A stretch of 64,000 nt of DNA from Erythrobacter oryzae (GTDB taxonomy: Bacteria; Pseudomonadota; Alphaproteobacteria; Sphingomonadales; Sphingomonadaceae). This document shows, piece after piece, positions 4,174 through 44,774 of the stretch (within the stretch, counting starts at the first letter, position 1; each line of letters begins with the position of its first letter). The translations under genes and the position numbers were made by a program. The stretch lies in the NCBI RefSeq assembly GCF_030271515.1, contig NZ_JASCXI010000004.1, positions 310,001 to 374,000 on the forward strand, given 5' to 3'. The notes under the pieces are model-generated. The model ran no database searches. It was not told where the DNA came from and saw only the letters and a list, made by a program, of their open reading frames with translations.

Positions 4174-9036
<4,863 letters not shown>

Positions 9037-9040
<4 letters not shown>

Positions 9041-10302
9041 AGCTTGAGGCGCGCCATCATGTCGCGGGTAACCAGCACCACGCCCTTTTCCGACACGCGG
9101 AAGCGGCGCGCGTCGAGTTCGGGATCCTCGCCGATCACGAGGCCCTCGGGAATGCGCACCCCGCTGTCGATGATGACCCGGCTGAGCCGCGCACCGCGCC
9201 CGATGTTGCAATAGGGCAGGATCACCGCCTCCTTGACGTTGGAATAGCTGCCGATCTTGACGCCGGTGAACAGGAGGCTGCGGCGCACTTCGGAGCCTGA
9301 GATGATGCAGTCCCCCGACACCAGCGAGGACACGGCAAAGCCGCGCCGCCCGTCCTCGTCATGGACAAACTTGGCAGGCGCGGCGACCACCGCGTCGGTC
9401 CAGATCGGCCAGTCGCGATCGTAGAGGTTGAGCTTGGGTACCGTATCGGTGAGGTCGAGGTTCGCCTCGAAATAGGCGTCCAGCGTCCCGACATCGCGCC
9501 AGTATTCCTCGATTTCCTCGGCGGCGCGGATGCAGGAATTGGTGAAGCGGTGCGCGACCGCTTTGCCGTGCTTGACGATATAGGGAATGATGTCCCCGCC
9601 GAAATCGCGCTTGGAGTTCGGATCGTCGGCATCGCGGCGCAGCTGTTCGAACAGGAAATCGGTGTTGAAGACGTAGATCCCCATCGAGGCCAGCGCCATG
9701 CCCTCATTGCCCGGAATGCCGGGGGGATCCTTGGGCTTCTCGACGAAGGCGGTGATGGTGTCCTTGTCGTCGACCTGCATGACGCCGAACCCGGTCGCTT
9801 CCATCCGCGGCACGACCAGACAGCCCACGGTCACGTCCGCGCCCGAATTGACGTGCTGCTGCAGCATCAATTCGTAGTCCATCTTGTAGATGTGGTCGCC
9901 CGCGAGGATCACCATGTACTTGGGCGCGAGGCTGGCGATGATGTCGATGTTCTGGAACACCGCGTCGGCGGTGCCTTCGTACCACTGGTTTTCCGACACG
10001 CGCTGGCTCGCGGGCAGGATGTCGAAGCTCTCGTTGCGCTCGGGCCGCAGGAAGGTCCAGGCGCGCTGCATGTGGCGGATGAGCGAGTGGGCCTTGTACT
10101 GCGTTGCCACCCCGATGCGGCGGATACCGGAGTTGATCGCGTTCGACAGCGCGAAGTCGATGATGCGCGATTTGCCGCCGAAATAGACCGCAGGCTTGGC
10201 GCGCCGGTCGGTCAGTTCCATCAGTCGGCTGCCGCGCCCTCCGGCGAGCACATAGGCCATCGCGTCACGCGCCAGCGGCCTCCCAGACGTTCTCTCGATC
10301 AT
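9037..10302 (-). CDS. glgC: Glucose-1-phosphate adenylyltransferase GlgC
   Basis: GlgC makes ADP-glucose from ATP and glucose-1-phosphate, the committed step of bacterial glycogen synthesis. The 421-residue protein starts [13 protein letters not shown] and has the nucleotide-binding LAGGRGSRL loop, the [11 protein letters not shown] activator/substrate region, the GTADAVFQN motif and a C-terminal left-handed beta-helix. The length matches the family (about 430). A purine-rich GGGGAGAG precedes the ATG at 10302. A 35-base gap separates it from glgB, the only junction in this operon that is not overlapping. Confidence 0.95.
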
Positions 10303-12500: not shown

Positions 12501-14911
12501 TTCACGCCCCAAATCTCACGCGCATATTCGCCGATGGTGCGGTCGGACGAGAACCAGCCGACATTGGCGATGTTCATGATCGCCGACTTGCGCCAGCCTG
12601 CGCGGTCCTCCCACCGCGCATCGACGTCGCGCTGGGCGGCGGCATAGGCATCGAAATCTGCCGCGACCATGAACCAATCGGAATTATAGAGCGCGTCCAT
12701 CAGCCCGGCATAGCGCGCCGGATCGTCGGGGCTGAACACCCCGCTGGAGATGGCGTTGACCGCCTGGCACAATTCGCGGCTGCCCTCGATCACCTCGCGC
12801 GGGTTGTAGCCCCCGGCGCGCTTGGCGGCGACTTCTTCGGCGGTGAGGCCGAAGATCACGATGTTCTCGGGCCCGACATGCTCCATGATCTCGATATTCG
12901 CGCCGTCCAGAGTGCCGATGGTGAGCGCGCCGTTGAAAGCGAACTTCATGTTCCCCGTGCCCGAGGCTTCCATCCCTGCGGTCGAAATCTGCTCGCTGAG
13001 GTCGGCCGCCGGAATGATCCGCTCGGCCAGGCTGACGTTGTAGTTGGGAACGAACACCACTTTCAGCATCTCGCCCACGGAAGGATCGGAATTGATCCGC
13101 CGCGCGATATCATTGGCGAGTTTGATGATGAGCTTGGCGTTGTGATAGGTCGGCGCGGCCTTGCCGCCGAATATCTTGACCCGCGGCACCCAGTCACGCT
13201 CGGGATGGCTGCGGATCTGGTCGTAGAGCGCGACTGTCTCGATCAGATTGAGCAGCTGGCGCTTGTATTCGTGGATACGCTTGATCTGGACGTCGAACAG
13301 CGCGTCGGGATCGAGCCGCAAGCCCGTCATCTCGCGCAGGTGGTTGGAGAGGTCGACCTTGTTGGCGCGCTTCACCTCGTCGACCCGCTCGCCCAGCGCC
13401 GCATCGCCTGCCATCGCGGCAAGTTCGGAGAGCTTCTCCGCATCGGCGATGAACTCGCTGCCAATGGCCTCGCGCACCAGACTGGTGAGGCGCGGGTTCG
13501 ACTGATGCAGCCAGCGGCGCGGGGTGACGCCGTTGGTCTTGTTGTTGATCCGCTCCGGATAGAGCTTGTGGAGATCGGCGAAGACCGTCTCCTTCATCAG
13601 CCCCGTGTGCAGCGCCGCCACCCCGTTGATCGAATGCGCGCCGACGAAGGCGAGGTTCGCCATGCGCACGCGGCGCTCGCCATGCTCGTCGATCAGCGAG
13701 ATCGCGGCGATCGCGGCATCGTCCATCCCCGCGCGCCGCGCCTCGCGCAGCACCTTGGCGTTGATCGCGTAGACGATCTGCATGTGACGCGGCAGCAGAC
13801 GTTCGAACAGCGGCAGCGGCCAGCTTTCGAGCGCCTCGGGCAGCAGCGTATGGTTGGTGTAGGCGATCGTCGCGCGGGTCACGTCCCATGCCTCGTCGAA
13901 GGTGAGGTGATGCTCGTCCATCAGCAGGCGCATCAGCTCGGCCACCGCGACCGAGGGGTGGGTGTCATTGAGCTGGATTGCGGCCTTGTCGGGCAGCGTG
14001 CGCACGTCGCCGCAATACTGGACGTGGCGGCGCACGATGTCCTGGATGCTGGCGCTCGAGAAGAAGAACTCCTGCCGCAGCCGCAGCTCCTGCCCGGCGG
14101 GGGTGGAATCCGCCGGATAGAGCACCCGCACCAGCGTATCGGCCCGCACCTGCGCGGCGAGCGCGCCCGCGTGGTCGCCCGCGTTGAAGGCGGCGAGCTG
14201 GATCGGGTCGAGCGCGTTGGCGGTCCACAGCCGCAGAGTGTTCACCCGCTTGCCCTGCCAGCCGACCACCGGCGTATCGACCGCAGTCGCCTCGATCTTC
14301 TCGGCCGGAGACCAGCGGATCGCGCCCTGTTCGCTCGTCACCTCCCCGCCGAAGCCGACGAGATAGGAGCTCTCGCGCCGCTCGAACTCCCACGGGTTGC
14401 CGTGGGCGAGCCAGGTCTCGGGCAGCTCGACCTGCCAGCCATCGTCAATGCGCTGGCGGAACATGCCGTTGATGTAGCGGATGCCGTAGCCGAAGGCGGG
14501 GATGTCGAGGCTGGCGAGGCTCTCCATGAAGCACGCCGCGAGCCGCCCCAGCCCGCCATTGCCGAGCGCGGCGTCGGGCTCGAGCTCCTCGAGCCGCGCC
14601 AGATCCATGCCGTGTTCCCGCAGCGCCTGCTCCATCTCGCGCGTGACGCCGAGGTTCGACAGCGCGTCGCGCAGCAAGCGGCCAATCAGGAATTCGAGGC
14701 TGAGGTAATAGACCCGCTTTGCCCCCGTCTCGTGCGCCGCCGAAGTCGAGGCGAACCAGCGGTCGATGATGTCGTCGCGCAGCGCGAGCACGCTCGCTTC
14801 GTACCAGTCATGCGGCTTGGCGGCCTTCTCGGTCTTGCCGACGCGGTGCCGCAGCGCGCCCATGATGCGCGCATCGAGATCCTGGGACTTGCCTTCGGGG
14901 CGGTTGGTCAC
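12497..14911 (-). CDS. glgP: Glycogen/alpha-glucan phosphorylase GlgP (GT35)
   Basis: GlgP releases glucose-1-phosphate from glycogen ends using pyridoxal phosphate. The 804-residue protein carries the family motifs YYLSLEFLIGR, NGGLGRLAACF and the PLP-lysine region EASGTGNMKFAFNG. The start is the GTG at 14911 (VTNRPEGKS), preceded by AAGGAG with 10-base spacing; an ATG at 15004 would add 31 low-complexity residues. It is the first gene of the leftward glg operon, so glycogen breakdown and synthesis enzymes share one transcript. Confidence 0.93.
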   Translation of the reverse strand: MTNRPEGKSQDLDARIMGALRHRVGKTEKAAKPHDWYEASVLALRDDIIDRWFASTSAAHETGAKRVYYLSLEFLIGRLLRDALSNLGVTREMEQALREHGMDLARLEELEPDAALGNGGLGRLAACFMESLASLDIPAFGYGIRYINGMFRQRIDDGWQVELPETWLAHGNPWEFERRESSYLVGFGGEVTSEQGAIRWSPAEKIEATAVDTPVVGWQGKRVNTLRLWTANALDPIQLAAFNAGDHAGALAAQVRADTLVRVLYPADSTPAGQELRLRQEFFFSSASIQDIVRRHVQYCGDVRTLPDKAAIQLNDTHPSVAVAELMRLLMDEHHLTFDEAWDVTRATIAYTNHTLLPEALESWPLPLFERLLPRHMQIVYAINAKVLREARRAGMDDAAIAAISLIDEHGERRVRMANLAFVGAHSINGVAALHTGLMKETVFADLHKLYPERINNKTNGVTPRRWLHQSNPRLTSLVREAIGSEFIADAEKLSELAAMAGDAALGERVDEVKRANKVDLSNHLREMTGLRLDPDALFDVQIKRIHEYKRQLLNLIETVALYDQIRSHPERDWVPRVKIFGGKAAPTYHNAKLIIKLANDIARRINSDPSVGEMLKVVFVPNYNVSLAERIIPAADLSEQISTAGMEASGTGNMKFAFNGALTIGTLDGANIEIMEHVGPENIVIFGLTAEEVAAKRAGGYNPREVIEGSRELCQAVNAISSGVFSPDDPARYAGLMDALYNSDWFMVAADFDAYAAAQRDVDARWEDRAGWRKSAIMNIANVGWFSSDRTIGEYAREIWGVK

Positions 14912-34637: not shown

Positions 34638-34664
34638 GGGAATAACTCCTCACGACAATCCGTT
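34638..34664 (+). promoter_or_regulatory. ECF-type promoter P1
   Basis: GGGAATAA, exactly 15 bases, then CGTT. The element ends 41 bases before the beta-hydroxylase-like gene. Four more promoters with the same elements and spacing occur at 37682, 37726, 43180 and 43239. Confidence 0.7.
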
Positions 34665-34705
34665 CTTGCCCTGATCGCGATAATCGCAGGACGGGAGGTC
34701 GCCTC

Positions 34706-35311
34706 ATGAAATATTTCAGGCTGGTTCGGGAGCGGATCGACACCGCCCCCCTGCTTGCCGAAATCGCCGCAAACACAGGCGCCTTCGAGGCGCATCGCGG
34801 GCGGCAGGAGAAGGTCACGGTGCAGCGCGAGGCGCTTGCGATACCCCTGCGCGGCGTGCGGGCATCGGCCATCGGCGAACGCCAGCGGCGCGATGTCCAT
34901 GAAACCCGGTGGACCAGCGGTTCGCCGCAATATCCGCTCGCCCGCGCTTTTCTGAAGTCAATCGCGCGCGATCTCGATGGCGAGCTGTCACGCGCGAAGA
35001 TCGTCTGCCTGCCGCCGGGTCACCGCGTCTATCCGCACATCGACCGGGGCGAATATTACCGCCTGCGCGACCGCTATCACCTCGTGCTCAAGTCATCGGG
35101 CTCGTGGATGCGTGCGGGCGACGAGGAGGTGCGGATGCGCAACGGAGAATTGTGGTGGTTCGACAACGACCAGCTGCACGAGGCCCGCAATGACGGGGAT
35201 GACGACCGGATCCACCTGATCTTCGATCTGCGCCCGCGCGATGGTGCGGCGCTGGTCACGGCCGGCGCGGCAGGTCGCGATCTGCCGATGCCTGACGCGC
35301 GAGCGCACTGA
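34706..35311 (+). CDS. Aspartyl/asparaginyl beta-hydroxylase-like protein
   Basis: The 201-residue protein has the aspartyl/asparaginyl beta-hydroxylase jelly-roll fold (PF05118-like). The metal and oxoglutarate-binding pattern is visible: His-x-Asp in VYPHIDRGEYY, then the LWWFDNDQLHEARN region and a later R-x-HLIFD arginine/His pair. Such Fe(II)/2-oxoglutarate enzymes hydroxylate residues in proteins or free amino acids. It stands alone behind ECF promoter P1. Its 3' end overlaps the convergent gene by 56 bases. Target proteins are unknown; the Asp-rich subtilase nearby is an obvious candidate. Confidence 0.82.
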   Translation: MKYFRLVRERIDTAPLLAEIAANTGAFEAHRGRQEKVTVQREALAIPLRGVRASAIGERQRRDVHETRWTSGSPQYPLARAFLKSIARDLDGELSRAKIVCLPPGHRVYPHIDRGEYYRLRDRYHLVLKSSGSWMRAGDEEVRMRNGELWWFDNDQLHEARNDGDDDRIHLIFDLRPRDGAALVTAGAAGRDLPMPDARAH

Positions 35312-35918
35312 GCCGGGCCGGGCTGGCGGCGGGTCCCGACAGGGCGGCGACCAGCTCGACCTCGCGCTTGCTGCCGCGCAGGTAGTTGATGCTGACCCGG
35401 CGGATGTAATGGCCGAGCTCGGGCGCGTAGTCCCATTCGCGCCGCTCGATCAGGCGCATCGTGGTCGATGAATAGCGGTCGCACACCACCGGAACCGCTT
35501 CGAAGGAGCCGGCCTTGACGGTGAAGCCGCGCAGCTTGCCGGACTTGCACACCCACAGGGCGACCGACCGCCTGAGCGCCGCCTCGGGGCTGGTGCGCGT
35601 CTCGCTCACCACGCGAAAGCGGACCGAGCGCGGGCGGGCCATCGGCCAGATCGCGTCGGGATTGCCGTGCACCTCGCGCCTGCCGGTGCCCCTGCCGCTG
35701 CGCCATGCCAGCACCGGCACGATGAAGTTGCGGCTGCGGGTGTAGCTCGGACCGGATAGGCCGGCCCAGATGACCGTGTCCCCGCGGCTCTCGACCACGC
35801 GTTCGACCCGCCCGTCGGAAAAGACGAAGGCATCGCCGCCCTCGTATTGCGGGAGAGCAATGGGGGAGGGTAACGCCGTGGCGGCGGCCGCTGCTGCGGC
35901 GACCAGGCTCAGGGTCAT
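35256..35918 (-). CDS. Secreted hypothetical protein coupled to the subtilase
   Basis: I do not recognise the family of this 220-residue protein. It begins with a hydrophobic Ala-rich segment (MTLSLVAAAAAAATALPSP) that reads as a signal peptide. Two cysteines (in WVCKSGK and VVCDRYSS, about 30 residues apart) could form a disulphide, and several beta-rich stretches follow. The ATG overlaps the subtilase stop as ATGA, so it is cotranslated and probably works with the protease, for example as inhibitor, chaperone or cofactor. Its 3' end overlaps the convergent beta-hydroxylase-like gene. Confidence 0.72.
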   Translation of the reverse strand: MTLSLVAAAAAAATALPSPIALPQYEGGDAFVFSDGRVERVVESRGDTVIWAGLSGPSYTRSRNFIVPVLAWRSGRGTGRREVHGNPDAIWPMARPRSVRFRVVSETRTSPEAALRRSVALWVCKSGKLRGFTVKAGSFEAVPVVCDRYSSTTMRLIERREWDYAPELGHYIRRVSINYLRGSKREVELVAALSGPAASPARLSALARQASADRDLPRRP

Positions 35919-37618
35919 GGCCGCTCCCCGATCAGGCCCACGCCGTAGATCGGATCGCGTCCGCGCGGGCCCAGATCGCGGGCCTCGCCCTCGAGCGCCT
36001 GCACCGCGCGGCGCGAGGCGGCCGTGTCGGGTGTGCGCAGCCGGGCAGCGAGCCTTGCAGCGACGATCGGGGAGGCAAAGGAGGTGCCGGTCGCATCGCG
36101 CAGCGCGCCCTTGTCGTCGATCGCCGCGACCGCGACGCCGTGCGCGGCGAAATCTACATAGCCGCCGCGATTGGCATAGCGGTAGACCCGATCCTGGGCA
36201 TCGACCGCCGTCACGCCGACCACGCCCTCGTAGGCACCGGGGAACACCGGAGGGGCCGCGGGGCCGTCATTGCCGGCCGCCGCGACGATGATGTGGCCCT
36301 GTCCCGCGATCCGCGCGATCGCCTTGGCAACGGCAGGGTTGCGCGGGCCGGACAGGCTGATGTTGATCACCGGCACCTTGCGCGCCGCGAGCCAATCGAG
36401 CGCCTTGATCAGCGCGAAGCTCGATCCGGCTGTCTCGCGCGGGCCGCTGAAGATGTCGGCGACGTAGATCCGGGTGGCGCGGTCCGGGTTGCCCTTTGTT
36501 CCCGAAACCAGATAGGCGACCGCTGTGCCGTGCAGCCGGGCTTCGGTCTGCTTGCCGTTGAAGGCCTGCTGGGTTAGCTGCACATGCTTGAACTGGGCGA
36601 GATCGCCGGCGACGCCGGTGTCGATCAGTCCGATTTCGCAGCCGCAGGCCACACGCGGCGGCGCGGCCTTCCCGCGCGCCTTGCGGGTGCGGGTGGCGGC
36701 GCTGTCGAACAGGTGGTTGAGGCCGATGCTGTCGGGATCGCCGAGCGCGTCCAGCGCATCGCGGGCAGCCTCTCCGGTGATCTGCGGCGGGCCGCGCAGC
36801 AGCAGCAGCGTGCCATCGACCGAGGCCAGCTGCTCGCGGGCGACGACCTCGAAGCCCTGCCCCTCGAGCAAGGCGAGGTCATCCTCGCTCAGATCCAGCG
36901 CGACGAATTCCCCGCGGCGGTAGCGGAAGCCCTCGTCGTCGGTGTCGATCCGGTCGCGCAGGTCGAGTTCGGCGCGCGTGGCAGCGCTTTCCGCGCCGGG
37001 CAGATCCCACGAACCGAGGTTGTCGTCGCTGTCATCGCCCTTGTCGTCGGCCTGGTCGTCGTCGCTGTCATCATCGTCATCGTCGTCGCCGCGGTCTTCG
37101 GCATTGCCCTTGCCGGAATTGTCGACCTTGTCGGCATCATCATCGTCGTCCGACTTGCCGGATCCGGAGTTGTCGTCGTCAGAGGCGTCGTCGTCGCTGC
37201 CGCTACCCCCCTTGCCGGAGCTGTCGCTGTCATCGTCGTCGCCGCCGTGGCCGGAGTTGCCGCCGTCGTCGCCCGAGCCGCTGCCGCTGTCATCGGAACC
37301 GCCATCGCCCGAGCCGCCATCGCCATCGTCGGAGCCCCCGGAATCGACGTCGTCGGGACCGCCCGCATCCGGGTCGCCTGTGTCCGGATCGCCCGCATCG
37401 GCATCCCCGTCCGCCCCGGGGTCGGAGCCGGGATCGGCATCGTCCGGGTCGGTGACATCATTGTCCGCACCCGGATCGACAGCATCGTCATCGCCGCCGT
37501 CGTCGTCGTCGCTGCCCGGCCCCTGCGCAAACAGCGGCGCGGACAGCGGCGCGCCGGTTTGGAGGCCATGCACGGCCAGCAGCACAAGCACAGCAAACAA
37601 GGGCATTCTCGAACGCAT
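35915..37618 (-). CDS. Secreted S8 subtilisin-like protease with long Asp-rich linker
   Basis: The 567-residue protein is a subtilase (S8). It has a signal peptide (about 1-31), an extremely acidic low-complexity segment of Asp, Gly and Ser (about 36-200), a small prodomain-like region (about 235-300) and a catalytic domain (about 320-567). The triad is Asp333 (GLIDTGV), His363 (LHGTAVA) and Ser513 (GTSFASP), with oxyanion Asn450 (AAAGNDG). The acidic segment may bind calcium or keep the protein soluble. It is transcribed from ECF promoter P2, back to back with the sigma factor. Confidence 0.92.
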   Translation of the reverse strand: MRSRMPLFAVLVLLAVHGLQTGAPLSAPLFAQGPGSDDDDGGDDDAVDPGADNDVTDPDDADPGSDPGADGDADAGDPDTGDPDAGGPDDVDSGGSDDGDGGSGDGGSDDSGSGSGDDGGNSGHGGDDDDSDSSGKGGSGSDDDASDDDNSGSGKSDDDDDADKVDNSGKGNAEDRGDDDDDDDSDDDQADDKGDDSDDNLGSWDLPGAESAATRAELDLRDRIDTDDEGFRYRRGEFVALDLSEDDLALLEGQGFEVVAREQLASVDGTLLLLRGPPQITGEAARDALDALGDPDSIGLNHLFDSAATRTRKARGKAAPPRVACGCEIGLIDTGVAGDLAQFKHVQLTQQAFNGKQTEARLHGTAVAYLVSGTKGNPDRATRIYVADIFSGPRETAGSSFALIKALDWLAARKVPVINISLSGPRNPAVAKAIARIAGQGHIIVAAAGNDGPAAPPVFPGAYEGVVGVTAVDAQDRVYRYANRGGYVDFAAHGVAVAAIDDKGALRDATGTSFASPIVAARLAARLRTPDTAASRRAVQALEGEARDLGPRGRDPIYGVGLIGERP

Positions 37619-37681
37619 CGCCTCTCCCCACGCGCGGGTCGCAGAATATCACGCAGCCGCCGGATTGACCATTGATGAGGA

Positions 37682-37708
37682 TACGGTTCACAGAGTGACT
37701 TTATTCCC
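37682..37708 (-). promoter_or_regulatory. ECF-type promoter P2
   Basis: On the minus strand GGGAATAA (37708-37701), 15 bases, then CGTA (37685-37682), 63 bases before the subtilase start. The -35 element forms a 9-bp inverted repeat with that of P3. Confidence 0.68.
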
Positions 37709-37725
37709 GCGACTTTTTATGGCTC

Positions 37726-37752
37726 GGGAATAATCCCGACCGCCGAACCGTT
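37726..37752 (+). promoter_or_regulatory. ECF-type promoter P3 (autoregulation)
   Basis: GGGAATAA (37726-37733), 15 bases, then CGTT (37749-37752). The -10-like element ends six bases before the sigma factor ATG, so transcription may begin at or next to the start codon. Confidence 0.68.
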
Positions 37753-37758
37753 TTCGCC

Positions 37759-38283
37759 ATGAGCCACCCGATGAATGCCGACGAGCAGACAAGACAAGCG
37801 CTGGTTGCGCTACTGCCGCGTCTGCGCCGGTTTGCACGGGTGCTCACGGGTAATCTGGCCGATGCCGACGATGTCGTGCAGACGAGCCTGGAGAAAGCGA
37901 TGCTGAATTGGGATCAGTGGCAACCCGGCACCCGGCTCGACAGCTGGATGTTCCGGATCGCCCGCAACACCTGGATCGACGACCGCCGCCGCGCGCACAA
38001 CCGCGCCGGGCATGACGACATCGACGCCCTGATGGACATAGCCGGCGATGACGGCGTGGCGCTGGTCGAGGCAAGCGATGCCGCGCGCAAGGTGCGCGCC
38101 GCGGTCGACCGCCTGCCGCCCGATCAGCGCGATGTGGTCGCGCTGGTGATGCTCGAGGAGTTCAGTTACCGCGACGCGGCCGAGGCGCTCGATCTGCCGA
38201 TCGGCACGGTGATGAGCCGCCTGTCGCGCGCCAAGGCGGCGCTGGCCAAGGTACTCGCCATGCCCGAGGGGATGGTGCAATGA
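37759..38283 (+). CDS. ECF RNA polymerase sigma factor
   Basis: The 174-residue protein is a group 4 (ECF) sigma factor. Region 2 (about 15-85) contains DADDVVQTSLEKAM and LDSWMFRIARNTWIDDRRR; region 4 (about 115-165) contains LPPDQRDVVALVMLEEFSYRDAAEAL and GTVMSRLSRAK. It should direct polymerase to the GGAATAA-N15-CGT(T/A) promoters seen around it. Its stop overlaps the anti-sigma start as ATGA. The ATG at 37759 would give a nearly leaderless mRNA from P3; Met5 at 37771 is an alternative start. Confidence 0.93.
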   Translation: MSHPMNADEQTRQALVALLPRLRRFARVLTGNLADADDVVQTSLEKAMLNWDQWQPGTRLDSWMFRIARNTWIDDRRRAHNRAGHDDIDALMDIAGDDGVALVEASDAARKVRAAVDRLPPDQRDVVALVMLEEFSYRDAAEALDLPIGTVMSRLSRAKAALAKVLAMPEGMVQ

Positions 38284-39074
38284 CCGCCGCCTTCACCGAT
38301 ACCCAGCTCGCCGCCTTCCTTGACGGAACGCTGGAGGACGATGGGCTCGCCCAAGCGATCGAGGCGGCGATCAACGCCGATCCTGCGCTCGCCGAACGGG
38401 CGATCGCGCTCGCCGAGGGCGGTGATGATGCCGCCGCGCAGACGGTGCGCGATGCCTTTGCGCCGGTGCTCGACGCGCCGGTCCCGGCCCGCCTGACCGA
38501 GGCGCTCGCCGCGCCGGGTGGTGCCGAGGTCGTCAATCTCGCCGACCGGCGCGAACAGACCCGCGCGCTGCCTCAGCCTGCCAACGACACCGGCAGCGGC
38601 TGGCGCTGGCCGCAGTTCGCAGGCCTCGCCGCCAGCCTCGCGCTTGGCGTGATGATCGGCGGGCCGCTGCTGGGCGGACGCGAGGGCGCATCTGGGGGCG
38701 ATCCGGGCGCGCTGCTGCTCGCCAATGCCGAGGTCTCGGCGATGCTCGATGCCGCCCCCAGCGGGCAGGCGCAGGATCTTGCCGCGCTCGGACAGGGAGA
38801 GGTGGTGCTGACCTTCCGCAACAGCGCGGGCGCCTTGTGCCGCCAGTTCACCATCACCGCGCCCGGTGGGGCTGCCACCAGCGACGCGCTGGCCTGCGCG
38901 GCCAAGGGCGGGGACTGGCAGGTCGAGGCTTATGGCCGCCGTGCGGCTCCGGTGGGCGAGATGAAGCTCGCGGGCGGCGATGCGGCGGTGGGCGTGGTGG
39001 CTGCGGTCGACGAACAGATCGCGGGCGATCCGCTGATCGGGCCCGAGGAGCTGGCCGAGCTCAAGCGGAAATAG
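38280..39074 (+). CDS. Membrane anti-sigma factor
   Basis: The 264-residue protein has an acidic N-terminal cytoplasmic part (AAFLDGTLEDDGLAQAIEAAINADPALAERA is the style of anti-sigma zinc-less domains), one membrane span at about residues 118-135 (FAGLAASLALGVMIGGPLL), and a periplasmic domain of about 120 residues with two cysteines (GALCRQF and LACAAKGG). Translational coupling to the sigma gene supports an anti-sigma role. The periplasmic domain is probably the sensor. The signal is unknown. Confidence 0.85.
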   Translation: MTAAFTDTQLAAFLDGTLEDDGLAQAIEAAINADPALAERAIALAEGGDDAAAQTVRDAFAPVLDAPVPARLTEALAAPGGAEVVNLADRREQTRALPQPANDTGSGWRWPQFAGLAASLALGVMIGGPLLGGREGASGGDPGALLLANAEVSAMLDAAPSGQAQDLAALGQGEVVLTFRNSAGALCRQFTITAPGGAATSDALACAAKGGDWQVEAYGRRAAPVGEMKLAGGDAAVGVVAAVDEQIAGDPLIGPEELAELKRK

Positions 39075-39102
39075 GCGGGCCGGGGGATCCCCGGCCCTGC
39101 CG

Positions 39103-40173
39103 TCAGATGATGAAGGCGATCTCCATCACCGCGGCCACGCCCTTGTTCACACCGGCGAGCAACTGCTCCTCGCGGAACCGCACCACATCAGCGCGCAGCT
39201 GGACGTTGGGGTGGAGCTGGTAGAACCCGCCCGCCCCGATCAGCCGGTTGCTGCGGTCCGAGGCCTTGGTGTAGGCCGCGCTCGCCGCGACACCCCATTC
39301 GGGGGTCACCCAGCCCACGCCGCCGTTCACTTCCCACTGATCGAACCCGCGATCGAGCCGGTTGGAATCGCCGCGGTCGACATAGGCGCCGCCGATCCGG
39401 AACGGCCCCCGGCGCGCTTCGGCCCCGAGGCTCCAGCTGTCGAGGTCGGCGCGGGTGGTCAGCGGATCGGCCTCGCCTGTGGCATAGCCTGCGCTCGCCC
39501 CCAGGATCCAGTCGCCCACCGGCTGCTGATATTGCAGCCCGAATTCGAAGGCATTGTCGAGCGCGATCCGTTCGCGCGAGTCCACGGCGGCCGAATTGCG
39601 GCGCACCTTGGGCGACCATGACACACCGCCGCGCAGACCCCCGACCGGCGGCGAGAGGTAGATCACCTTGAAGGCGTCCTGCGTATCGAGCGCGCGCAGC
39701 AGCGCCTGACTCCCCGCATAGCGCGAGAACTCGCCGCGCACCTGCCCCAGCGCCACCAGCGGCGCGGCAAAGGCGAGCGTGTCGGCCGGGCCATCCTGCA
39801 GGCCGACCTCGATCCGGCCATAGTCGGTTGCGGCAAAGGCGTAGATCTCCCCCGCCTCGAGCACTTCGGAGGCGCGGCGGCGGCTGTTCTGTTCGACATT
39901 GAAGCCGATCAGAACCCCGCCGGGCGAGGTCCATTCGGCATTGAGCCGTGCGAAGAGATCGATCTTGGCATCGGGTGAGTCGGTGGCGGGATCCCGGTCC
40001 TCGAACACCGCGCCCTGCGCCGCTGCGCCGGCAGTCAGGCGGATGTCGAAGCCCTGCCACTGCACCTCAAGCGGTCCGAGCCCCTCATCGGCCCGCGCGC
40101 TCGATGCCCCCGCCAGCGTCAATCCCGCCAGCACGCCGCAGCCCAGCCTGCGCAAACCCCCCAAATTCGGCAT
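39103..40173 (-). CDS. Gram-negative porin
   Basis: The 356-residue protein has a signal peptide (GVLAGLTLAGASSARA) and a general porin barrel: a first-strand region EVQWQGFDIRLTAG, alternating hydrophobic pattern, the LQDGPAD/FAAPLVALG loop region and a C-terminal VMEIAFII strand ending without the classic Phe. It probably forms a diffusion channel in the outer membrane. It is the last gene of the leftward unit beginning at 43143, 53 bases after the hydrolase gene, and may have an additional promoter there. Confidence 0.85.
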   Translation of the reverse strand: MPNLGGLRRLGCGVLAGLTLAGASSARADEGLGPLEVQWQGFDIRLTAGAAAQGAVFEDRDPATDSPDAKIDLFARLNAEWTSPGGVLIGFNVEQNSRRRASEVLEAGEIYAFAATDYGRIEVGLQDGPADTLAFAAPLVALGQVRGEFSRYAGSQALLRALDTQDAFKVIYLSPPVGGLRGGVSWSPKVRRNSAAVDSRERIALDNAFEFGLQYQQPVGDWILGASAGYATGEADPLTTRADLDSWSLGAEARRGPFRIGGAYVDRGDSNRLDRGFDQWEVNGGVGWVTPEWGVAASAAYTKASDRSNRLIGAGGFYQLHPNVQLRADVVRFREEQLLAGVNKGVAAVMEIAFII

Positions 40174-40226
40174 ATCCCGCTCTTTTCTTTATGGCCCCTC
40201 GGGGCATGGCTAATTGAAAACGATTG

Positions 40227-41021
40227 CTACAGCAACGCCTGCGCGGCGATCTTCAGCAGCCCGCCCTCGGTCACGCATTGATGAAAATCATGGCTCATGC
40301 CCGGCAGTGTCAGCAGCGTGGGGGTGCTGTCCTTGCCCTGTGCCTCGGCATAGCTGCGCAGCGCGCGGGTGTAGCACCGCGCGCGGCGCAGGCGGTTGCG
40401 GCCCTGGCGCAGGTTGATGATCTCGTCCTGCCGGACCGAGGCGTCGACCCGCGTGTCGCGGTTGCCGACGATCACCGTGGTCGGGATGTCGAGGAACTCC
40501 GGCCCGACAATCGCCCCGCCCTTCCCGTCGCCGATGCCGTGGGGGTAGGCGATGTCGGTGTGCGGCATGCAATACCACCCAGCCGAAACCACGCACAGGC
40601 GCCGCACCCGGCGGGGATGGAACAGGGCAAAGCGGTGCGCCATCTGCGCGCCGCCCGAAAAGCCGAACAGCGCGAAACGATCGGCCGTGATGCCGTATTC
40701 GGCAGCAAGGTCGTCGAGCAGCGCGATAAGCGCGTGGTCGGCGAGCACCTGTCCGCTCTTGCGCGCCACCAATTGCTGATACTGGCCGAACGCCTCGCGG
40801 GTGAACAGCGGGGCGATGATCGTCGTCCCGGCAAAGGCGGGGTCGAGCGCAAATCGCATCGCGATCTCGGCAGCGTTGCGGCTGATGCCGTGCACCGCGA
40901 CCAGCACCGGCTGACCGGGCCTGACATTGGCGATGTAGCAATCGGGCATCGCCCCGTGGCTGGCAGGGCGGAAGCGCGGCTGGGAGGCGGGCGCGACCAG
41001 GTCGGGCTTCAGGAAGGGCAT
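40227..41021 (-). CDS. Alpha/beta hydrolase, esterase/depolymerase-like
   Basis: The 264-residue protein is a serine alpha/beta hydrolase with the nucleophile elbow FGFSGGAQMAHRF, the oxyanion region VAVHGISRNAAE, an acid candidate in GNRDTRVDAS and the catalytic His in GMSHDFHQC. It resembles feruloyl-esterase/poly-hydroxyalkanoate-depolymerase-like proteins. There is no signal peptide, so it should act in the cytoplasm. The ATG overlaps the preceding stop by one base (TGATG; a GTG one codon upstream is possible). Its substrate may be the molecule handled by the ABC-like membrane protein. Confidence 0.82.
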   Translation of the reverse strand: MPFLKPDLVAPASQPRFRPASHGAMPDCYIANVRPGQPVLVAVHGISRNAAEIAMRFALDPAFAGTTIIAPLFTREAFGQYQQLVARKSGQVLADHALIALLDDLAAEYGITADRFALFGFSGGAQMAHRFALFHPRRVRRLCVVSAGWYCMPHTDIAYPHGIGDGKGGAIVGPEFLDIPTTVIVGNRDTRVDASVRQDEIINLRQGRNRLRRARCYTRALRSYAEAQGKDSTPTLLTLPGMSHDFHQCVTEGGLLKIAAQALL

Positions 41022-42058
41022 CACGACACTCGCTCCTGCGTCAAAGGAGTTGATGGCGGCGCAAGCGCGGCGCGCGGCGCGGCGGAGGATTCGAGCTCGC
41101 GCGCCCGCGCCGCGCGGCTGCGCGCCGTCCCCGAGCGGCGCGAGCGCTTGCGGGGCGGGGCGCTGGCGATCAGGCCGGCGAGCCGGTCGAGCGCGATCCG
41201 CCCGCCGATCCGCGCGTGGAGCGCGCGCACGCTCTCCAGCAGCCGGGCGGCGATGAAGCCGATCACGGTCAGATGTCCGGCGATCCCGGCATGGCCGCCG
41301 CGCCCCCCGGCTTGCCACACCAGCACGAGCGCGGCTGCCAGTCCGGCGAGCGTTGCGACAGCCTCCATCGCGCCGATCGCGGCCGCGCGCGTCACCGAAG
41401 CATGCGCCAGCGTGGCAGAGAGCGAGGCGAGTTTGCGGGTGCCATTGCCCTTGCGCGGCGGCGCGCTCTCGAGATCGGCGCGCACCTTGCGCACCATGAA
41501 GCGGTTGAGCCGCCCGCGCTCGCGACGCTGCACCAGAATCGCGCGGGACAGCGGCAAGGTCAGCAGCAGGATGACCGCCGTGCCGATCAGCAGAGGAAAC
41601 AGGCCGATGCGTAGTTGCGGCATGGTGAGGGCGACCCACAGGCCCGCCGCTCCGGCTGCCGTTGCGCTGGTCCACAGCCGCACCGATCCGCGCAAGGCGT
41701 AATTTCGCAGCGACGCCATGTCGTTGATAAGACCGGTGAGCCAGCGCGCGCCGCCCTCGCCCGCATTTGCGCCGCGCCAGCGCACCACCGCAGCGTAGAG
41801 CGCGGCGCGGCAATCGGCGACATAGCCTTGCGCGAAGCTCTCGCCGACCCAGCGCTGGAGCAGCAGCGCGGTGGCAGCCGCACCCGCGATGCCCGCACCT
41901 GCCGCCAGCGCCGAGGGCGCAGGGACGGGGCTGGAGAGCAACTGGTCGAGCTCGGCTGCAAACAGCACCACCAGCAGCGCCTCGCCGATCGCCAGCGTAA
42001 CCAGCGCCGCGGCAAGACCGCGACGTCGCCCTGCCAGAAGCCTCGGGGCAGAGGTCAC
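41021..42058 (-). CDS. ABC exporter transmembrane domain without ATPase domain
   Basis: The 345-residue protein resembles the six-span type-1 ABC exporter membrane domain: several hydrophobic spans (about residues 12-32, 42-62, 125-145, 150-170, 240-262, 270-290) and the characteristic ARWLTGLINDMASLRNY coupling-type region. The protein ends after the membrane part with a basic tail (PPRKRSRRSG); no Walker A, signature or Walker B motif follows, and none is encoded in the flanking genes. The GTG start overlaps the P-loop gene stop. It could use an ATPase from elsewhere or have lost transport function. Confidence 0.75.
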   Translation of the reverse strand: MTSAPRLLAGRRRGLAAALVTLAIGEALLVVLFAAELDQLLSSPVPAPSALAAGAGIAGAAATALLLQRWVGESFAQGYVADCRAALYAAVVRWRGANAGEGGARWLTGLINDMASLRNYALRGSVRLWTSATAAGAAGLWVALTMPQLRIGLFPLLIGTAVILLLTLPLSRAILVQRRERGRLNRFMVRKVRADLESAPPRKGNGTRKLASLSATLAHASVTRAAAIGAMEAVATLAGLAAALVLVWQAGGRGGHAGIAGHLTVIGFIAARLLESVRALHARIGGRIALDRLAGLIASAPPRKRSRRSGTARSRAARARELESSAAPRAALAPPSTPLTQERVS

Positions 42059-43143
42059 GCGGCGACCCGCAATCCGGGCGCGCTGAAGGCGATGCGCGCG
42101 GCCGCCACCGGATCGCGCAAGCTGGCAAGATCGGCGAGTTCGATCCCCGTCGCCATCGCCGCCTCGCGCGCGGCGAGCGGAGAGGCCGTGACCAGCCCGG
42201 AAATCGCCAGGGGCTCGATTCCGCGCCGGGTCAGCCACTCGCAGCCGAAAGCCGCGCCCATCGCGTCGGCGGCGGCGAACAGGAAGCCGTCGAACCAGCC
42301 GCGGGCATGACCGGTCAGGGCCAGCGCGGCGGTCTCCCGCTGGAGCAGCCCGTCGGCGATCTCGACCACCGCGATATCCATCCCCGCCGCGCCGAGACGG
42401 GCGAGCAGCAGCTGCGCGACATCGCCCAGATCCTCGTCGGACACCCCGAAGGTCGAGGCATGGCCTGCATCGGTGAAATCGAGCGCCAGCGCCGCCCCGG
42501 CATCGCGCATCGACCACAGGTCCCCGCCCGACCCGGTGCCGGTGAGCTTGGCCACGCCGACATTGAAGCCTGCGCGGCTCAAGCCGTGGATCAGCCCGCT
42601 GACGGTCGTGGTCTTGCCCGCGTTCATCGAGCTGCCGACCACCGCGATCACCCGGGCCGGGCGCGCGGACGGCGGCGGCGCGAGGGCGAAATCGGCAAGA
42701 TTGACCGCCTGCCCATCGGCCCGCATCAGCGCGCCGATCACCTCGATCTTCGTGGCGGGCTTGATGCCCGCGTGACGCGAGGAGACCAGCGCTGCCACCC
42801 CGCCGCCTGCGACCAGATGGCATGGCCCAAGGTTGTCGGGGACATAGGCCTCGAACTGGTCGGGTGCGTAGCGGTTGCCGTAGGCGACGATGATCTCGTC
42901 CCCCTCGTAGAGATCGCCGCGGCGGCCGTGGACATTCTCGAGCCGGCGGTGCTGGCCGAGGCCGGTGACCCGCGCGAGGATGAGGTCGCCCGGCTGCGGT
43001 CGGCGGCCCGATCGCACCAGCCGCGATGCCGCCGCCAGATCGACATTGCGCGTGGTGAAAGCGCGCTTGGCTGCCGCGAGCCGCCGCTCGAGCCGCTCGC
43101 CATAGGCCACCCCGTCGAGCGACTGGAAGTCATGGATGGTCAT
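42055..43143 (-). CDS. P-loop NTPase, DUF1611/dethiobiotin-synthetase-like
   Basis: The 362-residue protein has an N-terminal beta-rich region (about 1-150) with ARVTGLGQHRRLE and VPDNLGPCHLVAGGGVAAL, then a P-loop domain with VVGSSMNAGKTTTVSGLIHGL (Walker A, about 169-176). The fold style is that of the dethiobiotin synthetase/CobQ or DUF1611 group, where nucleotide binding supports a ligase-like or transferase reaction. I do not know its exact function. It is the first gene of the four-gene unit under ECF promoter P5. Confidence 0.7.
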   Translation of the reverse strand: MTIHDFQSLDGVAYGERLERRLAAAKRAFTTRNVDLAAASRLVRSGRRPQPGDLILARVTGLGQHRRLENVHGRRGDLYEGDEIIVAYGNRYAPDQFEAYVPDNLGPCHLVAGGGVAALVSSRHAGIKPATKIEVIGALMRADGQAVNLADFALAPPPSARPARVIAVVGSSMNAGKTTTVSGLIHGLSRAGFNVGVAKLTGTGSGGDLWSMRDAGAALALDFTDAGHASTFGVSDEDLGDVAQLLLARLGAAGMDIAVVEIADGLLQRETAALALTGHARGWFDGFLFAAADAMGAAFGCEWLTRRGIEPLAISGLVTASPLAAREAAMATGIELADLASLRDPVAAARIAFSAPGLRVAA

Positions 43144-43179
43144 TGGCTTGTCTCCTCATGGCTGGGCTTGCCCGATGCT

Positions 43180-43205
43180 AACGGAGGGGGGGCGCCGCTT
43201 ATTCC
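43180..43205 (-). promoter_or_regulatory. ECF-type promoter P5
   Basis: On the minus strand CGGAATAA with the GGAATAA core at 43205-43199, 15 bases, then CGTT (43183-43180), 36 bases before the P-loop gene start. Confidence 0.65.
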
Positions 43206-43238
43206 GCAGCGCGCGGAAAAAACTTTGTCGGGGTCGGC

Positions 43239-43265
43239 GGGAATAAGTGACGGGGCTGTCCCGTT
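43239..43265 (+). promoter_or_regulatory. ECF-type promoter P4
   Basis: GGGAATAA (43239-43246), 15 bases, then CGTT (43262-43265), 54 bases before the OprO/P-like porin gene. It is back to back with P5. Confidence 0.7.
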
Positions 43266-43319: not shown

Positions 43320-44510
43320 ATGACCAAGCACCCGTTCCGCCCCGCCGCATCGCTGCGCGCCATCGCGCTTGCCGCAGGCCTTGCCGCCCTTGGTGCCGGG
43401 AGCGCGGCCTGCGCCGAAGAGGTCGCCGATGCCAGCGCCGACGAGGACGGCCTGACGCTCAAGACCGGCGATATCGAATTCAACCTCGGCGGCAGGCTCC
43501 ATCTCGATGCTTCGGTGTTCGAGCACGGCCTCACCGACGGCAGCGACGCCGACGTGCGCCGCGCGCGGCTCGAGTTCTCGGCCAAGTTCGGGGATGTGGT
43601 GACGGTGCGGGTCGACCGCGAATTCGCGCAGGCCGATGGCTGGCGCAACCTGTGGCTGGCGGTCGAGCCGGTCGAGGGGCTGGAGATCAAGGGCGGCAAC
43701 ATGATCGTCCCCTTCAGCATGGAGGACATGCAGAGCTCGAACACGATGCCGCTGGCCGAACGATCGCTGGCCAATTCCTTCTCGCCCGGCTTCGGCCTCG
43801 GCGGCAGCGTCAAATATGCGGGCGAAAGCTTCACCATCGCCGGCGGCTACTTCACCGATGCGCTCGACGACGAGGTCGGGCAGTCGCGGGTGCGCGGCGA
43901 TGGCTATGTCCTGCGCGCGACCTTCGCCCCCGTCCGCGAGCGCGACAGCTTCCTGCATCTGGGCGCGGCCTATGAACACCGTTCGTTCAACGCCGCCGAA
44001 CCGCCGCGCTTCACCGCGATCTCCGCCTCGAGCCTTGCCCCCAATCTTGCATCGACCGGCGCGCTTGCAGGCGCGCGCACTCTCGACGCCTATAATGCCG
44101 AATTCGCCTATTCCCGCGGGGGCTTGCAGGTGCAGGCGCAGTACATCGCCGCCACCATCGATCGCGTCGCGGCACCCGGCCTCGATTTCAATGGCTGGTA
44201 TGTCGGGGCGGGCTGGCTCGTCACCGGCGAGCGCTACGGCTATTCGCGCGCCAGCGGCGTGCCGAGCGGGGCGCGGATCGGCAAGAAGGGCGGCGCGGTC
44301 GAACTCAACGCGCGCTACAGCCGTGCCGATCTCGACGATCCGGCATTGGACCGCGGAACCGCCACGATCCTGACCGCGGGGGCGACCTGGTACATCACCC
44401 GTAACATCCGGGTTCTCGCCAACTACGCGCACACCCGCACGGCCGGCAGTGCGCTGGTGCCCGATGCCAGCGGCAATCTCGGCTTGGTGCGCTTCCAGCT
44501 GGCATTCTAG
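43320..44510 (+). CDS. Phosphate-selective porin O/P-like outer-membrane protein
   Basis: The 396-residue protein has a signal peptide (AIALAAGLAALGAGSAACA) and an OprO/OprP-type barrel: GDIEFNLGGRLHLDASVFE, RRARLEFSAKFGDVVTVRVDREF, a GNMIVPFSMEDMQSSN loop and a terminal LVRFQLAF strand ending in Phe, the BAM recognition residue. Despite the family name many members transport other anions or solutes. It stands alone behind ECF promoter P4, divergent from the P-loop unit, so two porins belong to the same predicted regulon. Confidence 0.87.
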   Translation: MTKHPFRPAASLRAIALAAGLAALGAGSAACAEEVADASADEDGLTLKTGDIEFNLGGRLHLDASVFEHGLTDGSDADVRRARLEFSAKFGDVVTVRVDREFAQADGWRNLWLAVEPVEGLEIKGGNMIVPFSMEDMQSSNTMPLAERSLANSFSPGFGLGGSVKYAGESFTIAGGYFTDALDDEVGQSRVRGDGYVLRATFAPVRERDSFLHLGAAYEHRSFNAAEPPRFTAISASSLAPNLASTGALAGARTLDAYNAEFAYSRGGLQVQAQYIAATIDRVAAPGLDFNGWYVGAGWLVTGERYGYSRASGVPSGARIGKKGGAVELNARYSRADLDDPALDRGTATILTAGATWYITRNIRVLANYAHTRTAGSALVPDASGNLGLVRFQLAF

Positions 44511-44684
44511 CCGCGGTTGCGCATCGCATCAGGGTCGCGATCTGCTCCGGATGCCGGCATGCCACGTCGAGGCATCCGAAAGCGGAGAGGCGGCTATTGC
44601 CGCGGGCTTATCGGTGCACCGGGTTGAGTTCTGGCCCGAACGGGCGTCCGCAATGGTTCGAGATTGCTCAAATCGACGGGCAGC

Positions 44685-44774
44685 TGGCGGAGAGGGTGGG
44701 ATTCGAACCCACGTTACCGTTGCCGGTAAACCGCATTTCGAGTGCGGCGCATTCGACCACTCTGCCACCTCTCC
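44685..44774 (-). tRNA. tRNA-Ser (anticodon CGA)
   Basis: The minus strand folds as a class II tRNA: acceptor GGAGAGG at the 5' end, anticodon loop CTCGAAA with anticodon CGA, a long variable arm (about 16 bases), the T-loop GGTTCGAATCC, and an encoded 3' CCA. It reads UCG serine codons. The extra arm and the 90-base length with CCA are typical of serine tRNAs. Confidence 0.96.

Follow-up and report, generated by a model that had tools for sequence, protein, structure and literature searches.

A predicted ECF26-like sigma factor regulon in Erythrobacter oryzae and a candidate symmetric promoter in a sister clade

Introduction

A 64,000-nt stretch of the Erythrobacter oryzae genome (contig NZ_JASCXI010000004.1, positions 310,001 to 374,000; hereafter the window) encodes an extracytoplasmic function (ECF) sigma factor and its putative anti-sigma factor, surrounded by five short sites of one architecture, GGAATAA, a spacer of 15 bases (N15) and CGT followed by T or A (CGTW). 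Are these sites promoters, which sigma factor would read them, and does that sigma factor belong to a described group? Comparison of sequences suggests that the region is the core of a regulon of the ECF26 type, more precisely of the type of RpoE6 from Sinorhizobium meliloti, with the local sigma factor driving six sites in the genome, a reading to which we assign a probability of about 0.86. We favour it because the sites are rare and conserved before orthologous genes, and because the type of promoter matches both the clade of the sigma factor and one residue of its sigma4 region.

Promoter-like sites in the window and in the genome

The window and the full genome (3,559,918 bases on seven contigs) were searched for the pattern; the chance expectation was taken from 100 dinucleotide shuffles of the window and, for the genome, from the reversed pattern. 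The exact pattern GGAATAA-N15-CGTW occurs five times in the window (shuffles: mean 0.01, largest 1), at the positions and on the strands that a first-pass annotation of this DNA had reported:

34638..34664 (pattern match 34639-34664), plus strand: promoter 1, GGGAATAA-N15-CGTT, 5' of the Asp/Asn beta-hydroxylase gene
37682..37708 (pattern match 37682-37707), minus strand: promoter 2, GGGAATAA-N15-CGTA, 5' of the S8 protease gene
37726..37752 (pattern match 37727-37752), plus strand: promoter 3, GGGAATAA-N15-CGTT, 5' of the sigma/anti-sigma operon
43180..43206 (pattern match 43180-43205), minus strand: promoter 4, CGGAATAA-N15-CGTT, 5' of an operon for a P-loop protein, an ATP-binding cassette (ABC) exporter part and a hydrolase
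43239..43265 (pattern match 43240-43265), plus strand: promoter 5, GGGAATAA-N15-CGTT, 5' of the Porin_O_P gene

The spacer is 15 in all five, CGTT ends four of them and CGTA one, and four have GGGAATAA, the site at 43205 having CGGAATAA. Each stands before a gene (hydroxylase, 34706; S8 protease, 37618, minus; sigma, 37759; P-loop/ABC operon, 43143, minus; Porin_O_P, 43320), and two pairs are back to back, in the sigma/protease gap and in the P-loop/porin gap; the first-pass annotation was right that all five precede genes and that two pairs are back to back. The looser pattern GGAAT-N14..20-CGTW finds the same five sites and one more, with about three expected; since this count is near expectation, the signal far above chance is that of the full exact pattern and not of the loose one.

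A genome-wide search, suggested in the same annotation, found the exact pattern six times, at the five window sites and at one site on another contig (G000:C3:474865-474890; G-numbers denote genomes and L-numbers fetched loci), and the reversed pattern never. The spacer is 15 in all six sites, and each lies 5' of a gene and points toward it. No likely gene contains an exact site; some sites overlap antisense open frames, which we take as spurious. The version with a 14-base spacer (N14) is absent from the whole genome. In a family sample of 149 genomes, with E. oryzae counted in, exact N15 sites occur in 62, E. oryzae alone having more than three; the N14 version reaches five sites in G041 and in G002.

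The sixth site (L001) is followed, 57 bases beyond its end, by the start of a gene for a secreted peptide of 54 residues. No homologue of this peptide was found in the other genomes among 385 of the class, short queries being hard for the first pass of such a search. By tblastn on the fetched loci, the only good match (61%) is in the Asticcacaulis locus L117, where the peptide gene lies a few kilobases from an ECF/S8/P-loop locus and where GGAATAA-N15-CGTC precedes the peptide gene, the sigma gene, the S8 gene and the P-loop operon alike. The match is an independent, though single, check of the sixth target.

An ECF26-like sigma factor

PMC6180224 gives the ECF26 consensus in S. meliloti as GGAATA at -35 and GT at -10, describes ECF26 sigma genes divergent from serine protease genes as widely conserved, and argues that rpoE6 is autoregulated. 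The first-pass annotation knew of no described ECF group with this set of targets; this claim did not survive the comparison, and an undescribed ECF group was rejected as ECF26 fits both the motif and the gene order. At 45.8% identity over 95%, the sigma encoded in the window resembles that of an S. meliloti pSymA locus (strain R28, L172). This locus holds, letter for letter, the promoters of SMa0142, ecfR6 and SMa0148 given in Table 1 of PMC6180224, all with N14, together with an S8 gene divergent from the sigma gene and an anti-sigma gene downstream. In E. oryzae, the six GGAATAA-N15-CGTW sites conform to the ECF26 consensus, the anti-sigma gene lies downstream of the sigma gene (38280-39074) and the S8 protease gene is divergent from it (35915-37618, minus), as in the RpoE6 type; the spacer is the point of departure, 15 in six of six sites in place of the 14 bases of that type. 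Genes annotated as anti-sigma factors in L172 and L173 are matched by the window anti-sigma in tblastn and are collinear with it. Taken together, identity, sigma tree, motif and gene order support the assignment of the window system as ECF26-like and closest to S. meliloti RpoE6; a sigma system that looks like an orphan would thereby find its place in a known group, with a predicted six-promoter regulon.

Conservation across relatives

An alignment of the window P-loop protein with two relatives was scanned against GTDB species genomes and gave 313 relatives, the best 80 of which were retained as loci (the nearest, from Erythrobacter colymbi, at 94%). A promoter was scored upstream of the P-loop gene where GGAATA[ATG]-N14/15-CGT[TAC] occurred within 330 bp, gene starts being extrapolated from tblastn. 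Such a site is present in 20 of the 24 loci with a sigma gene versus 6 of the 56 without, and in many alphaproteobacterial loci with an orthologous sigma the motif again stands before orthologous genes. These results support well the local ECF regulon proposed by the first-pass annotation, which had also named this comparison of loci. A strict site precedes the Asp/Asn hydroxylase gene in five of eight other loci (L095, L097 and L101 with N15; L115 and L151 with N14; not L099, L154 and L169), the gene of an outer-membrane-type protein (family F21) in five of nine, and the Porin_O_P gene in two of 17 (L092 and L095); in most other Porin_O_P loci the porin gene follows the hydrolase gene in the same direction. 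Promoter 3 also keeps its position before the sigma operon in relatives. The family genomes gave 45 sigma matches; 19 of the sigma regions were fetched and read, and the S8 gene is divergent from the sigma gene in all 19.

In E. colymbi (L092, about 14513-14517), a stretch of about 1.1 kb matching window positions 37506-38626 is missing; lost with it are the two promoters between sigma and protease, the sigma gene itself and the first parts of the protease and anti-sigma genes. If real, the loss is a natural sigma deletion, the alternative being an assembly fault. Another locus (L084 of genome G033, about 5173-9970) has a decayed P-loop/ABC/hydrolase operon that keeps the back-to-back N15 promoter pair; the P-loop gene is in two frames, the Porin_4 match is cut short and transposase-like open reading frames were recognised by eye. 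No sigma match was found in the 19.5-kb stretch of this locus.

Spacer length and sigma phylogeny

Spacers of 10 to 20 bases were permitted in a survey of the window and of loci L066-L085 and L092-L173 (genome G113 is represented twice, as L068 and L100). Site-to-gene assignments numbered 35 for N14, 29 for N15 and three for other lengths. On a tree of 57 sigmas, the type of promoter changes seven times, against a mean of 25.7 for shuffled assignments, none of 200 being as low. The clade of the window sigma (support 96/95) has N15 in eight of nine members, the exception being L101, whereas N14 is found in six of six members of a Novosphingobium-type clade and in all 11 of the Rhizobiales clade that includes S. 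meliloti. The spacer of 14 or 15 bases thus largely follows the sigma tree. The statement of the first-pass annotation that the spacing is kept to the base holds for E. oryzae, where it is 15 in all sites and where the exact pattern is hardly expected in the window; relatives use 14 or 15, so that the exact value belongs to the lineage. No insertion or deletion between sigma2 and sigma4 that would consistently account for N14 versus N15 was seen by eye in an alignment of 19 sequences. Such a natural, regulon-wide change of one base in the spacer lends itself to the question of how ECF sigmas gauge the distance between -35 and -10.

One residue of sigma4 also follows the type of promoter. In the motif GT-x-X-SR, the residue before SR is M in all 28 sigmas with GGAATA-type promoters (18 N14, nine N15 and one mixed), and T, N, S or A in all 27 sigmas associated with the palindromic site described below (M in 0 of 27). 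Because these 27 form one clade, the change counts as one switch and not as 27. Two further sigmas without an assigned promoter have T at this position.

A palindrome between sister sigma and protease genes

In 16 of the 19 fetched family sigma regions, the gap between the sigma and protease genes has no GGAA[TC]...CGT site. Reading the gaps between these sister sigmas and the S8 protease revealed a perfect palindrome, GGATKAAACG-N12-CGTTTMATCC. Allowing N8-12, it is present in 33 of the 149 family genomes (G001, G002, G011, G033 and 29 more), once in each; allowing N1-30 returned the same 33 sites, all with N12, and the reversed control gave none. All 33 lie 21-67 bases from a sigma match, as coordinates compared by hand indicate (examples are in L069, L070, L073 and L176:3625-3656). 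A check of 30 sigma loci found the palindrome in 23 (in one as a close variant), a GGAATA site in four and only a looser form in three. Genome G002 has both types of sigma, one gene of each, and either gene is accompanied by its own type of promoter.

Read as a promoter, the palindrome is GGATKAA-N15-CGTT on both strands, which is the layout of the window sites with another -35 element. A directional search of the 33 genomes with GGATKAAAC-N13-CGTTT found, beyond the palindromes, eight sites in seven genomes. One of them belongs to the second sigma gene of G071; the remaining seven are spread over six genomes and never lie more than 3 kb from the palindrome. In six of these six genomes (L175-L180) the CGTTT of a directional site stands 31-54 bases before the start of a gene for a small exported protein of one family (108-117 residues, core like IAGIEN.WF.YRIDI.EAQ.EL.SDLRRA). 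This gene is located beyond the anti-sigma gene in five genomes and, in L177, beyond that of the protease; the one site left over (L176:4962) is 5' of a different exported protein. The MATCC of the palindrome is lacking in all seven. That directional copies without MATCC precede the small exported protein genes argues for the halves of the palindrome being -35 and -10 elements and not an operator. Given this and the promoter layout on both strands, the palindrome is probably a symmetric two-way ECF promoter serving sigma/anti-sigma on one side and the S8 protease on the other.

The sister sphingomonad loci resemble the window in their sigma (about 42-54% identical), anti-sigma, divergent S8 gene and layout of seven bases, N15 and CGTT, but they differ in the -35 element GGATKAA, in the single symmetric site between the divergent genes and in the T, N, S or A of sigma4 in place of M; no match to the P-loop operon was found in their fetched regions. 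We consider it rather probable that an ECF26-like promoter layout has been rewritten clade by clade together with its sigma, as GGAATA-N14, as GGAATA-N15 and as a 32-base palindrome in which each arm would combine a -35 element with the -10 element of the opposite strand, each binding of polymerase choosing one output. If so, the symmetric promoter would make the output of sigma, anti-sigma and protease depend on one choice, that of the orientation of the polymerase.

Weighing the alternatives

Several observations weigh against a regulon read by the local sigma. A site before the P-loop gene is lacking in four sigma-bearing loci (L101, L158, L164 and L165) and present in six that gave no sigma match (L092, L102, L133, L151, L159 and L171); two of the latter, L133 and L159, are from Desulfobacterota, and GGAATAA-N14-CGTT lies 5' of their P-loop gene although the stretch shows no sigma match. 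Nearly all sigma-bearing loci belong to one class, so the locus counts are not independent. E. colymbi keeps both promoters of the P-loop/porin gap though its sigma gene is missing. Among RpoE6-linked promoters of S. meliloti, those of SMa0139 and SMa0187 do not fit GGAATA-N14-CGTT in the table of PMC6180224. The association of spacer and clade is also imperfect: the sigma promoter of L101 is N14 inside the N15 clade; outside this clade, Asticcacaulis (L117) has N15 and Sphingopyxis (L128) is mixed, so that N15 is not confined to the window's clade; L143 and L168 combine N15 at the P-loop gene with N14, and L106 has one N15 site among N14.

A chance clustering of a short motif could be imagined from the occurrence of the bare motif in 62 of the 149 family genomes, but five sites in the window for 0.01 expected, and their conservation before orthologous genes, make the probability of this negligible. 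Promoters of the general stress sigma EcfG (ECF15), which is under PhyR/NepR control and has a large, scattered regulon, also start with GGAA and end with GTT. The idea that EcfG and not the local sigma reads the window sites is very improbable: they have GGAATAA and not the GGAAC core of EcfG, a distinction already drawn in the first-pass annotation; there are six of them in the genome, five of which are at the sigma gene, and the type of motif follows the clade of the local sigma. Next to the sigma gene, too, lies that of an anti-sigma of 264 residues, which has a likely membrane helix. Cross-reading does occur, 27 RpoE6 target genes having overlapped the RpoE2 regulon in S. meliloti (PMC6180224).

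The sites could also be operators of a repressor or activator. Four of the five form two back-to-back pairs in divergent gaps, and the site of the sister clade is a perfect palindrome; against this, the halves of the window sites are unlike and directional, pointing to the gene in six of six cases, their layout is identical, bar one spacer base, to that of promoters mapped in S. meliloti (PMC6180224), and the directional copies of the sister clade lack the last bases of the palindrome and precede one small gene in six of six genomes. We regard operators as extremely improbable. That the sites belong to another ECF sigma encoded elsewhere, the local one being merely a neighbour, is improbable to a lesser degree. 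It would explain why G033 keeps an N15 pair at its decayed P-loop operon with no sigma match nearby, and why target promoters persist in E. colymbi, where the sigma gene is missing. It has to contend with the two sites in the sigma/protease gap itself, with the strong association across loci, and with the genome of E. oryzae, where a single match to the sigma is found at E<=1e-30, more distant ECF sigmas being present.

If the local sigma indeed reads the six sites, its family suggests that the membrane anti-sigma (38280-39074) would hold it until an envelope signal inactivates the anti-sigma. Free sigma would then bring RNA polymerase to GGAATAA at -35 and CGTT at -10, 15 bases apart, and transcribe its own operon, a positive feedback with a co-made inhibitor, as well as the divergent exported S8 protease with the following gene, the Asp/Asn hydroxylase, the operon of the P-loop ATPase/GTPase, ABC exporter part and hydrolase, Porin_O_P and the 54-residue secreted peptide. 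The S8 protease could act in signalling or envelope quality control, and the P-loop/ABC/hydrolase operon could make or export some product.

Genes of the locus

The genes of the locus, with the predicted targets numbered, are as follows:

34706..35311, plus strand: aspartyl/asparaginyl beta-hydroxylase-like protein (AspH), 201 aa, target 1 (Pfam PF05118, 5.9e-16)
35256..35918, minus strand: hypothetical protein, probably exported, 220 aa, next after the S8 protease (open reading frame; no Pfam match)
35915..37618, minus strand: S8 (subtilisin-type) serine protease, target 2 (PF00082, 3.7e-20)
37759..38283, start probably ATG 37771, plus strand: ECF sigma factor (PF08281, PF04542)
38280..39074, plus strand: anti-sigma factor, 264 residues, overlapping the end of the sigma gene (no Pfam match)
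39103..40173, minus strand: Gram-negative porin (Porin_4), convergent with the anti-sigma gene (PF13609, 3.1e-26)
40227..41021, minus strand: alpha/beta-hydrolase-like protein, third gene of the target-4 operon (open reading frame)
41021..42058, minus strand: ABC-exporter membrane part, second gene of this operon, start uncertain (no Pfam match of its own)
42055..43143, minus strand: P-loop protein (SIMIBI-type, DUF1611/dethiobiotin-synthetase-like), first in target operon 4 (Pfam matches to MobB/DUF1611, weak and below cut-off)
43320..44510, plus strand: phosphate-selective-type porin (Porin_O_P), target 5 (PF07396, 2e-47)

Nine of the proteins were compared with NCBIfam and none matched an equivalog above cut-off; for the sigma, only a superfamily model was above cut-off among the matches listed (best 25 of 82). 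The sigma/anti-sigma operon is among the predicted targets, as the first-pass annotation had it, though the start given there for the sigma needs revision. ATG 37759 is only six bases past the CGTT of promoter 3, and the in-frame ATG 37771 is kept in all five printed relatives of the N15 clade (L093-L097), a stop codon preceding it in L097; on these grounds 37771 seems the likelier start. Around this ATG the two printed N14 relatives (L103 and L115) differ. By eye, the anti-sigma has an N-terminal cytoplasmic part, one likely membrane helix and a C-terminal periplasmic part.

The S8 protease has a likely signal peptide and an acidic N-terminal stretch rich in D, S and G. Such stretches (window about 36940-37560, L155:9419-9835 and L103:8838-9824) recur in unrelated products of these clusters, namely the S8 protease, the outer-membrane-like F21 and a small Vibrio protein (F32), and could perhaps bind cations. 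The gene of the 220-aa protein probably shares a transcript with the protease gene; its homologue is beside S8 in L092-L097, L099 and L100, and is found in L101 without an S8 match. The Porin_4 gene has no motif upstream in the window, and we do not count it among the targets. The Porin_O_P gene is adjoined by a gene for tRNA-Ser (anticodon CGA; 44685-44774, minus), so that the open frame crossing the latter at 44529-44768 is spurious.

In the target-4 operon, the hydrolase-like protein has a homologue in L117 with a weak PF01738 match below cut-off. The ABC-exporter part is the positional homologue of exporters with PF00664 (L153 and L114) and PF00005 (L114 only); an ATPase part was not seen in the protein encoded at 41021..42058. 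The P-loop protein was modelled with AlphaFold2 at a mean predicted local distance difference test score of 93.9, and its PDB matches, among the 50 listed, include signal recognition particle-type GTPases and dethiobiotin synthetases with query template modelling scores of 0.32-0.39. The model suggests a confident fold that partly resembles SIMIBI-class enzymes such as dethiobiotin synthetase; the PDB matches, being partial, do not identify a substrate. The P-loop/ABC pair is widespread, being found in cyanobacteria, Vibrio, Azoarcus and one metagenome-assembled genome of Chloroflexi (L105-L171). Two-component regulator genes lie beside the pair in many, not all, of these loci, and in several from cyanobacteria, Vibrio/Pseudoalteromonas and Azoarcus/Rhodocyclaceae histidine kinase and response regulator genes adjoin it (assigned from family clusters F0, F5/F6 and F18/F30, with Pfam checked on L155 and L114 only). 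A literature search on DUF1611 with ABC transporters, judged by title, found nothing relevant. The pair is a widespread, little-studied module that would be tied to different regulators, an ECF sigma in alphaproteobacteria and two-component genes in other groups.

Comparison with known systems

EcfG (ECF15) resembles the window system in its GGAA...GTT-type promoter and differs from it in the GGAAC core, set against GGAATAA, in the PhyR/NepR partners beside the sigma and in its large regulon. For the palindrome of the sister clade, the nearest precedent is in Escherichia coli, where symmetric bidirectional promoters are known and symmetry permits RNA polymerase to bind in two orientations (PMC12825309); there the symmetry is in a shared -10 element, whereas the palindrome would embed both -35 and -10, and the main text of that paper does not contain the word ECF. 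Literature searches by half-sites and by words returned no title describing such a palindrome among the matches listed. The group ECF26 is known; the set of targets, the N15 lineage and the sister-clade symmetric site, all predicted here from sequence, were not met in the literature searched.

Other ECF26 members, RpoE1 and RpoE4 of S. meliloti, respond to sulfite (PMC3511301, accessible part). They share with the window sigma the ECF group and a GAA...GT type of promoter, but the window sites have no sorT-, cytochrome- or azu2-like genes behind them, and that part of the source mentions no divergent S8 protease for RpoE1/RpoE4; for both reasons sulfite is not a safe guess for the signal, and we rejected it. 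By Pfam and NCBIfam, no family of RpoE1/RpoE4-type sulfite oxidation genes is found directly behind any of the six sites.

The closest known system is RpoE6-EcfR6 of S. meliloti (PMC6180224), which shares with the window a sigma about 46% identical, a downstream anti-sigma, a divergent S8 target, autoregulation, argued for S. meliloti and predicted for the window, and the promoter GGAATA(A/G)-N-CGTT. The two differ in the spacer, 14 bases there and 15 in the window lineage, and S. meliloti has an additional promoter for ecfR6 within rpoE6. The target sets are for the most part different as well, glyoxylase-superfamily and hypothetical genes in S. meliloti corresponding to the P-loop/ABC/hydrolase operon, AspH and Porin_O_P in the window.

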